Shown here in pieces: positions 32,281 to 34,865 of a stretch of 64,000 bases of DNA. Numbering within the stretch: the first letter of the stretch is position 1; every line of letters begins with the position of its first letter. The stretch is from positions 1-64,000 of the forward strand of contig NZ_JAKZLF010000030.1 of the NCBI RefSeq assembly GCF_022808855.1. Reading direction: 5' to 3'. The notes under the pieces are model-generated. The model made no database searches, was not told the DNA's origin, and saw only the letters and a list, made by a program, of their open reading frames with translations. Source of the stretch: Anaeromyxobacter soli. GTDB lineage: Bacteria > Myxococcota > Myxococcia > Myxococcales > Anaeromyxobacteraceae. A program made the translations under genes and the position numbers.

Positions 32281-33762
32281 TCAGCCCTCCGTCCCCTCTT
32301 CCTCCGCGAGCAGCCGCTCGACGCGCTGCGGCTCGCTCCGGAGCAGGAGGACCTTTTCCTGGCTGTAGGTGACCGCGCCCGGGGCGGCGCCCTTCTGCTT
32401 GCGGACGAACTTCGCGCGCGTGTAGGCCACGTCGGCCTGCGGCTCGCCGCGGGCATCGGAGAAGTGCACGGCGAGGTTCGCGGCGTCGAGGAGCGTGTCC
32501 TGGTCCGGCCCGCGGCCCTTCTCCAGCCGCACCACGACGTGCGCGCCGGGGATCCCGCGCGCGTGCAGCCAGAGGTCGTTGCCGCGCGCGACGCGGAGCG
32601 TGAGCCGGTCGTTCTCGGCCGCGCCGCGGCCGACGAGGATCGCGGCGCCGCTCGCGGAGCGGAACGCGCGATAGGGGACCGCCTCCTCGCGGGCGCGCGC
32701 GCGCTCCGCGGCGCTCCGGGAGCGCGCGGGCTGCTGCGGCCGCGGGCCCGCCCCCAGCCGGCGCGCCTCGCGCTCGAGGCGCGAAAGCTCCTCGAGCGGC
32801 GCCCCGTCGATCTCGCCGAGGAGCGCGCGGAGCGCCGCCTCGCGGCCGCGCACCTCGGCCGTGCGCGCCGCCACCCGCGCGGCGCTCTCCACGATCCGGC
32901 GGTAGCGGCGGTAGTACCGCTCCAGGTTGGCCTGCGGCGTGAGCGCCGGGTCGAGCGCCACCTGGACCTCGCGCGGCCCCTCCTCCGTCCACTCGGTGAC
33001 GGTCACCTCCCGCGCGCCCCGCTTCACCGCGCGCAGGTTCGGCTTCAGGAGGTCCGCCATCCGCCGGTCCGCCTCCGCGGCGGGGACGCGCGCCGCCTCC
33101 TCCGCGAGCTTCGCGAGGGCGCGCCCTGCGCGGGCGACCCCGGCGCGGACCGGCTCGCGCAGCCGGCGGCGGGCCTCGGCGACGATCCGGTCCTGCTCGA
33201 GGGTGGCGTAGTGCGCCTCGATCGCCGCCGAGAGCGGGAAGGGAGAGGCGAGGTCGGGCGTGAAGCGCGGCCGCTCCGGGCGGGCGGGCGGGTTCGCGGG
33301 AGGCTCGTAAGGCTCGCCCGGGACGAGCTTGCGCCGCTGGGAGAGGTTTCGCCCCGCGCTCGCCTGGATGATCCCGTCGGCGCCGAGCAGGAAGAGGTTC
33401 CCGTGCCGCCCGGTCAGCTCGCCGACGAGGCGGAGCGCGCCGCGAGGCGTCTCGAAAGCGAGGGCCACCACGCGATCGCCCGGCAAGGACTCGAGGCCGA
33501 CGAGGCGCGCGCCCTCGATCTCGCGGCGCAGGACGGCCTGGAAGGGGAACGGCGAGGGCGGCTGCGGCGGGCGTGCGCGCACGGCGTGGAGGCGCGTGAC
33601 GTCCGGCTCGGCGGAGAGGAGGAGCAGCGCAGGGCCGGAGCGGCCGTACAGCTCGAGGGTCAGCGCCCGCTCGGCGTGCACCCGCACCGCGTCGACGCGC
33701 GCTCCGGCGAGCGGGGCGAGCTCGCGGACCACCGCGTCGATCTCTCCGGCGTGAAGCGACAT
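32281..33762 (-). CDS. NFACT-family ribosome quality control protein (RqcH/FbpA-like)
   Basis: A 493-residue cytoplasmic protein of the Rqc2/NEMF/RqcH family, which binds 50S subunits carrying stalled nascent chains and helps tag them with alanine. The NFACT-N domain (1-180) contains ELTGRHGNLFLLG; helices around 190-350 form the HhH and coiled-coil region; the C-terminal NFACT-R domain has RVARGNDLWLHARGIPG and HVVVRLEKG. At 493 residues it is shorter than the about 570 of Bacillus RqcH, mainly in the coiled coil. A TAGGAT box (minus, 33775-33770) ends seven bases before the ATG, and there is no Shine-Dalgarno sequence. Confidence 0.87.
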   Translation of the reverse strand: MSLHAGEIDAVVRELAPLAGARVDAVRVHAERALTLELYGRSGPALLLLSAEPDVTRLHAVRARPPQPPSPFPFQAVLRREIEGARLVGLESLPGDRVVALAFETPRGALRLVGELTGRHGNLFLLGADGIIQASAGRNLSQRRKLVPGEPYEPPANPPARPERPRFTPDLASPFPLSAAIEAHYATLEQDRIVAEARRRLREPVRAGVARAGRALAKLAEEAARVPAAEADRRMADLLKPNLRAVKRGAREVTVTEWTEEGPREVQVALDPALTPQANLERYYRRYRRIVESAARVAARTAEVRGREAALRALLGEIDGAPLEELSRLEREARRLGAGPRPQQPARSRSAAERARAREEAVPYRAFRSASGAAILVGRGAAENDRLTLRVARGNDLWLHARGIPGAHVVVRLEKGRGPDQDTLLDAANLAVHFSDARGEPQADVAYTRAKFVRKQKGAAPGAVTYSQEKVLLLRSEPQRVERLLAEEEGTEG

Positions 33763-33789
33763 GCCGCGGATCCTAACGACGAAGGCCCC

Positions 33790-33820
33790 AAAAAAGCAGC
33801 GGCCGCCCGGAGGCGGCCGC
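33790..33820 (-). terminator. Intrinsic terminator of the lysine-rich peptide gene
   Basis: GCGGCCGCC (33799-33807) pairs with GGCGGCCGC (33812-33820) around a four-base loop. On the minus strand the stem is followed by TGC and six T residues (33795-33790). It lies 28 bases past the stop of the 28-codon gene, just upstream of the NFACT-like gene. Confidence 0.9.
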
Positions 33821-33847
33821 GGCGCTGCGCGATGAAGCGCGCCGTCG

Positions 33848-33934
33848 CTACTTCTTGGCGGTCTTCTTCGCCGCCTTCTTCTTCGTCGTCGTCTTCTTCG
33901 CGGCGGGCTTCTTCGTCGTCTTCTTCGCAGGCAT
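33848..33934 (-). CDS. 28-residue lysine-rich histone H1-like peptide
   Basis: A complete tiny gene. The product starts MPAKKTTKKPAA and ends KKAAKKTAKK; it has 13 Lys in 28 residues, the rest Ala, Thr and Pro, the (A/T)KK repeat pattern of histone H1 tails and bacterial AlgP/HC1-like DNA-binding tails. Support for a real gene: an AGGAGG Shine-Dalgarno sequence (33947-33942) seven bases before ATG, a promoter with a TTGACG -35 box further upstream, and a strong terminator just after the stop. No globular domain is present. DNA compaction or binding to nucleic acid or polyphosphate are possible roles; none is shown by the sequence. Confidence 0.82.
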   Translation of the reverse strand: MPAKKTTKKPAAKKTTTKKKAAKKTAKK

Positions 33935-34006
33935 CGTGTTCCCTCCTCGGAACGTCCATCCGATGTCGCTTGTCGCTGGACATTCAAGAATGGACAAGTT
34001 GCGCGG
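33935..34006 (-). promoter_or_regulatory. Leader of the lysine-rich peptide gene with inverted and direct repeats
   Basis: About 65 bases of predicted 5-prime leader. It contains CATTC-AA-GAATG, a perfect inverted repeat, inside a longer CTTGTC...GACAAG pairing, and a direct repeat GGACA. An AGGAGG site closes the leader. Most other transcript-first genes here lack such a leader, so RNA-level control is possible. Confidence 0.4.
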
Positions 34007-34036
34007 AGGTTAGCGCGCCGAGATCACACACGTCAA
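34007..34036 (-). promoter_or_regulatory. Promoter of the lysine-rich peptide gene
   Basis: Minus-strand TTGACG (34036-34031), 18-base spacer, TAACCT (34012-34007). Expected start near 34000, about 65 bases before the ATG. Confidence 0.6.
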
Positions 34037-34235: not shown

Positions 34236-34865
34236 ATGCTCCAGACGAAGCTCCTCGCGTTCACGAACCTCGGCGCCGAGTGGGTGCTGTGGCTCCTCAT
34301 CGGCCTCTCGATCGCTTCGGTCGGGATCATGATCGAGCGCCTCGCCTTCTTCCTCTCCCGCCGGGCGATCGACGTGGACGCGCTGCAGGCGCGCCTCCTC
34401 GATGGGGACCTCGCGGGCGCCGCCGCCGCCGTGGCGGGACGCCGCGGGATGGAGGCGGACGTGGTGCGCGCCGCGGTGACGCACGCCGCGAAGGGGCCCG
34501 AGGCCGTCCGCGAGGTCGTGTCGGGGACGATCGAGCGGGCCCGCATCGAGTACGAGCGGCGGCTCGCCTTCCTCGGCACCCTCGGCAACAACGCCCCCTT
34601 CATCGGCCTGTTCGGCACCGTGCTCGGCATCATCCGGGCGTTCGTCGATCTCTCGCGCAACCCGGGGGCGGCCGGCGCGGGCACCGTGATGGCAGGGATC
34701 AGCGAGGCGCTCGTCGCCACCGCGGTCGGGCTGTTCGTGGCGCTCCCCGCGGTGGTCGCCTACAACCTGTTCCAGCGCGGGCTCCGCCGCACGGCGCAGC
34801 GCGCGACGGCGCTCGGGCACGCGGCGGTCGCGCACCTCGAGGCGCGCCCCGTCAGGGAGGCGTGA
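34236..34865 (+). CDS. MotA/TolQ/ExbB proton-channel protein
   Basis: A 209-residue inner-membrane channel subunit that, with the ExbD-like protein, turns the proton gradient into motion of TonB or Tol proteins. Three membrane segments are at about 14-34, 115-140 and 155-180. The conserved channel block LGTLGNNAPFIGLFGTVLG and AGISEALVATAVGLFVALPA are intact, with the Thr and Ala residues lining the ExbB pore. It is followed after three bases by the ExbD-like gene and then a TonB-like gene, so an ExbB role is likelier than TolQ because no TolA, TolB or Pal gene follows. Confidence 0.92.
   Translation: MLQTKLLAFTNLGAEWVLWLLIGLSIASVGIMIERLAFFLSRRAIDVDALQARLLDGDLAGAAAAVAGRRGMEADVVRAAVTHAAKGPEAVREVVSGTIERARIEYERRLAFLGTLGNNAPFIGLFGTVLGIIRAFVDLSRNPGAAGAGTVMAGISEALVATAVGLFVALPAVVAYNLFQRGLRRTAQRATALGHAAVAHLEARPVREA

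Follow-up and report, generated by a model that had tools for sequence, protein, structure and literature searches.

A predicted lysine-rich micropeptide gene upstream of rqcH is conserved in Myxococcota

The trp leader, SecM and MifM are leader-peptide attenuators or nascent-chain sensors, and in yeast a polybasic tract lies inside the RQC1 gene itself. Mycobacterial MDP1 and Myxococcus CarD carry a lysine-rich or HMGA/H1-like disordered tail, a basic segment that binds DNA in those proteins (PMC5974015, PMC4182748). RqcH has been recorded in 61 of 72 Myxococcota surveyed (PMC11633108). A search of the open-access literature for work joining RqcH with lysine-rich peptides found nothing. Here we describe a locus of Anaeromyxobacter soli in which a predicted lysine-rich micropeptide gene precedes a gene of the RqcH family.

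The window, the whole 64-kb stretch of DNA that was analysed, comes from a 5.3-Mb genome assembly of 80 contigs. As read from the sequence and the list of open reading frames (ORFs), it contains a 28-codon ORF on the minus strand (33934-33848, TAG stop), whose product is MPAKKTTKKPAAKKTTTKKKAAKKTAKK, with lysine at 13 of 28 residues. Among ORFs of 15-250 aa on both strands of the window, it is the only one with at least 20% lysine. The ORF and its surroundings comprise the following features:

34236..34865, plus strand: ExbB/TolQ-family gene, a divergent neighbour with less conserved linkage (neighbourhood comparison)
34031..34036, minus strand: −35-like hexamer TTGACG (sequence; position and sequence kept in the family alignment)
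34007..34012, minus strand: −10-like hexamer TAACCT after an 18-nt spacer (sequence, family alignment)
33954..33995, minus strand: leader hairpin 1, GTCCATTC / GGATGGAC, near the inferred mRNA 5′ end (8 pairs, kept in 9 sequences)
33938..33953, minus strand: leader hairpin 2, GTTCC-GAGGAG-GGAAC, with the Shine-Dalgarno site within the loop (family comparison)
33848..33934, minus strand: 28-codon lysine-rich ORF (sequence, ORF list; related frames in relatives)
33790..33820, minus strand: intrinsic terminator GCGGCCGCC-TCCG-GGCGGCCGC, then TGCTTTTTT (terminator scan, family alignment)
32281..33762, minus strand: NFACT/RqcH-family gene, the conserved partner (PF05833, PF05670; PDB 7as8)

The first-pass annotation had read a TTGACG-18-TAACCT promoter, a structured leader with a Shine-Dalgarno site, and a U-tailed terminator, and each of these elements holds. 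Specifically, both hexamers are present and keep their positions and sequences in the family, though TAACCT is a weak −10 element (3/6 match) that a generic promoter scan does not call. The leader is about 65 nt long, and its two helices are conserved among nine family sequences: helix 1 pairs GTCCATTC with GRATGGAC, one pair being G-U once, and helix 2 has two pairs broken in one sequence. The Shine-Dalgarno region reads GAGGAGG. The two predicted helices are supported by conservation, not by covariation, none of which is measurable in the leaders: helix 1 hardly varies in either arm, and in Myxococcaceae the second helix is too poorly aligned to count. Myxococcaceae have a different, nearly invariant 5′-proximal helix (GCACTC/GAGTGC), and the conserved leader helices of both families look like 5′-end stabilisers. 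The terminator stem, at 33820-33799, was found by a scan and is kept in relatives. ARAGORN and Rfam scans of the window gave no match, and a genome search found the leader motif as a single exact copy.

All seven congeners that match in full retain frame, start codon, Shine-Dalgarno site, stop codon and terminator, as do several genomes of the same family. Peptide lengths in the first aligned set of relatives range from 21 to 29 aa, and the peptide of Anaeromyxobacter terrae SG22 is identical to MPAKKTTKKPAAKKTTTKKKAAKKTAKK. The block from promoter to terminator is 100% identical in one congener, whose flanking genes are 90-93% identical, and about 95-98% identical in another (flanking genes, 84-88%). 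The first-pass annotation had named loss of the frame in close relatives as evidence against its 28-residue lysine-rich gene; we find the frame kept in congeners, in the family and in the wider Myxococcota, and sequence comparison confirms the gene as real and conserved. We infer that the peptide is translated and abundant. A dN/dS coding test was uninformative, because repeat slippage breaks the register, and a homology search with the 28-mer alone, a query too short and too low in complexity, returned only three genomes.

The NFACT gene begins about 28 nt after the terminator U-tract. Its protein contains NFACT-N and NFACT-R domains above cut-off (PF05833 and PF05670), has B. subtilis RqcH as its most similar solved structure (PDB 7as8, E 3.5e-43), and scores below the NCBIfam cut-offs for archaeal RqcH and EfbA; on domain content and similarity, we assign it to the RqcH family. 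No promoter dedicated to this gene, rqcH, is evident. In the congener with a unit identity of about 97%, identity over the 25 nt that precede rqcH is only 44%, so no conserved rqcH promoter lies there. With a terminator standing between ORF and rqcH, and the rqcH start a few tens of nucleotides beyond it, rqcH is probably transcribed by read-through of the micropeptide unit. The rqcH frame also stays open upstream through the lysine-rich ORF, as a poly-Arg frame (32281-33987, minus strand, 568-aa ORF). We rejected a frameshift fusion of the ORF into rqcH, because the upstream poly-Arg frame is missing in congener G007 (open frame 499) and is attributable to chance. The ExbB gene, which the first-pass annotation had set alongside the NFACT-like gene as a neighbour, is absent beside the ORF in several genera; the conserved partner is the downstream rqcH.

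We read 105 Myxococcota regions upstream of the NFACT gene, searched for the gene across the order and the phylum, and counted strictly only ATG-started lysine-rich ORFs of 20-99 aa lying shortly upstream of rqcH on the same strand. Such a free-standing Lys/Ala/Thr ORF occurs in 68 of the 105 regions (21 of 21 in the window's family, 47 of 84 elsewhere), a raw count, uncorrected for phylogeny, from a sample weighted to close relatives. It is present in Myxococcaceae (Myxococcus, Corallococcus, Pyxidicoccus), in other families of the order and, outside the class, in three genomes (G155, G166 and G167), of which G166 and G167 are AT-rich, encode MACAKK... peptides and have promoters of the TTGACA type. 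The strict count leaves out G028 and G034, whose basic ORFs are longer, and G091 and G163, where extra DNA intervenes between ORF and rqcH. Beyond Myxococcota, no AKK-type ORF was found upstream of NFACT in the Nitrospirota, Spirochaetota, Acidobacteria and Planctomycetota loci read. Of the 68 regions, 59 have an intrinsic terminator after the ORF and before rqcH; its stem begins 21-44 nt past the stop codon, and the distance from stem to rqcH start is mostly 10-60 nt. The first-pass annotation is supported in part: the free polycation gene of H1-tail type, equipped with expression signals, is conserved, and the nucleoid or polyphosphate binding proposed there may apply. It had recognised neither the phylum-wide tie to rqcH nor the probable dependence of rqcH on read-through.

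The 63 distinct peptides are composed of Lys (35%), Ala (31%), Thr (13%), Pro (5.5%) and Arg (5%), and are virtually without aromatic or large aliphatic residues, apart from one Leu-bearing exception. Acidic residues occur in 24 of the 63, for the most part towards the C termini of the longer peptides. The exclusive use of AAG for lysine was considered as a stalling or anti-slippage signal and rejected, as the codons match host usage. Against the HC2 family (PF07382, cut-off 40 bits), the 28-mer gives no match and longer relatives score 31.9 and 29.9 bits; against the bacterial H1-like model (NF038053, cut-off 80 bits), long relatives score at most 32 bits and the 28-mer none. At cut-off, no Pfam or NCBIfam model recognises free polycationic micropeptides of this kind, and they are easy to overlook.

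Judging from sequence, we favour, with a probability of roughly 0.58, a conserved Myxococcota microprotein gene for a trans-acting polycation, with rqcH as its read-through tail. Its own promoter would produce a short mRNA, with hairpins close to its 5′ and 3′ ends, from which a disordered polycation would be strongly expressed. The peptide would probably act in trans by multivalent electrostatic binding of polyanions, like a free histone-H1 tail. Guessed from composition, its target may be RNA or ribosomes, possibly in stalled-ribosome clearance, at least as likely as the nucleoid or DNA; an RNA or ribosome target gains plausibility because the ORF stays beside rqcH in two orientations. Where rqcH lies downstream of the terminator, it would most likely be expressed at a lower level by read-through. 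Frame, charge and composition are kept across GC-rich and AT-rich genomes, which supports the gene, as do its presence in the 68 of 105 regions, the exceptional nucleotide conservation of the unit and the sub-threshold resemblance of some longer relatives to the HC2 profile.

Several arrangements favour action in trans. In five Polyangia-type loci (L218, L226, L249, L256, L264), rqcH is followed closely by a lysine-rich ORF on the other strand, convergent with it and separately promoted; sequences such as TTGACA-N-TACAAT and GGAGG precede this ORF. No lysine-rich ORF was found downstream of rqcH in 29 other regions, from genomes without the upstream ORF. These Polyangia ORFs are of a different repeat type and could have a separate origin. 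In addition, G031 and G040 have a 26-27-aa lysine-rich ORF with promoter-like sequence and a Shine-Dalgarno site, while NFACT gave no match there by protein or NFACT-R profile, G040 being only 69% complete. The extra DNA that parts ORF from rqcH in G091 and G163, and the lack of a conserved antiterminator, point the same way. Against a trans role, several genera of family f4, in which rqcH immediately follows another gene, have no stand-alone ORF detectable by start-site pattern, as a cis role predicts. The ORF of G031 and G040 (family f9) is likely, though not proved, to be orthologous to the rqcH-linked ORF; its neighbours differ, so it may be non-orthologous. The evidence for co-loss of ORF and rqcH is mixed.

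Four of the Polyangia-type loci (L226, L249, L256, L264) share a TATAATT-type element shortly upstream of a TTGACAC −35-like box of the convergent ORF, perhaps an activator site or a second promoter. In the genera with rqcH behind another gene, L164/L186, L173 and L163 encode proteins in which an AKK-rich N-terminus is fused to further domains, among them one that is EF-hand-like. Locus L145 (G095) has a short Lys/Arg-rich ORF of a different type (37 aa, MPAKKGNRSKKSLKRRATAKRAVLKRRRLRSRKSKGR).

The main rival, which we consider unlikely, is a leader peptide acting in cis. As the polybasic ORF is translated, its nascent chain would slow the ribosome and set how much transcription reads through into rqcH, and stall sensing would thereby adjust the rescue factor. 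A short ORF and an intrinsic terminator before the candidate regulated gene, as expected of a leader-peptide attenuator, are found in the 59 of 68 regions, and the order promoter, polybasic ORF, terminator, rqcH is kept in distant lineages. The fairly constant start of the stem, the lack of an evident rqcH promoter and the failure to detect the ORF in some genera where rqcH follows another gene also fit a cis role, and polybasic autoregulation has been proposed for yeast RQC1 (cited in PMC6750593). However, in 26 genomes we set the terminator against the best alternative fold, in which its 5′ arm pairs with upstream sequence, using shuffled-arm controls; the alternative pairing is mostly no better than that of shuffled arms, the terminator dominating in most. 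A classical attenuator is not supported, as no conserved mutually exclusive antiterminator pairing appears in these genomes; ribosome- or protein-linked antitermination is possible. Furthermore, the stem would be out of reach of a ribosome at the stop codon, ORF length ranges from 20 to 99 aa and more, and neither the convergent Polyangia-type arrangement nor the ORFs where NFACT was not found suit a leader.

It is still less probable that the peptide is a trans partner of RqcH, binding the obstructed 50S or peptidyl-tRNA and aiding RqcH, perhaps in place of RqcP. The neighbourhood with rqcH, kept in two orientations, fits such a partnership. So does a PF01479 scan of G000, G112 and G166, all with rqcH, where the matches read or sized included no short S4-only RqcP/Hsp15-like gene, though this absence comes from one Pfam model, three genomes and part of the matches. 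The S4 proteins seen in that scan were RpsD-sized, TyrS-sized and of pseudouridine-synthase type. The f9 ORF without NFACT and the many rqcH genes without the ORF speak against a partner, and the low-complexity sequence offers no specific interface. Finally, an untranslated product, either a stable small RNA or a mere leader with an accidental ORF, would account for the very high nucleotide conservation within the genus, synonymous sites included, but is highly improbable, since frame, start codon, Shine-Dalgarno site, stop codon and lysine content survive large changes of sequence, length and GC content.

Adjacency to rqcH suggests a connection, so far overlooked, of stalled-ribosome clearance with a histone-tail-like peptide. 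A phylum-wide coupling of such a micropeptide to ribosome-associated quality control, in which polybasic translation meters rqcH read-through as a stall sensor or the peptide works with RqcH on the obstructed 50S in bacteria apparently without RqcP, is a tentative idea that we hold to be doubtful. Under the favoured trans-acting polycation, the micropeptide is a minimal natural H1-tail-like peptide to study. Its linkage to rqcH persists across much of the phylum, in two orientations and over a wide range of GC content, and offers a way, through Myxococcus xanthus genetics, to study what regulates or assists ribosome-associated quality control in bacteria.

The locus resembles the trp leader, SecM and MifM in having a short ORF, then an intrinsic terminator, then the gene that would be regulated, except that no conserved alternative structure is seen here and the ORFs also occur without rqcH or convergent to it. 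Like yeast RQC1 (as cited in PMC6750593), it ties a polybasic coding tract to a ribosome-quality-control gene, whereas the bacterial tract is a separate upstream cistron. With Chlamydia Hc2 (PF07382) and the Burkholderia-type H1-like proteins (NF038053) the peptides share AKK/KKPAAKK-type repeats, extreme positive charge and predicted disorder; two longer relatives match these models weakly, below the curated cut-offs, and the micropeptides stand alone, at 20-99 aa, linked to rqcH. Unlike the tails of MDP1 and CarD, the micropeptide is encoded by a separate gene and lacks a folded domain.
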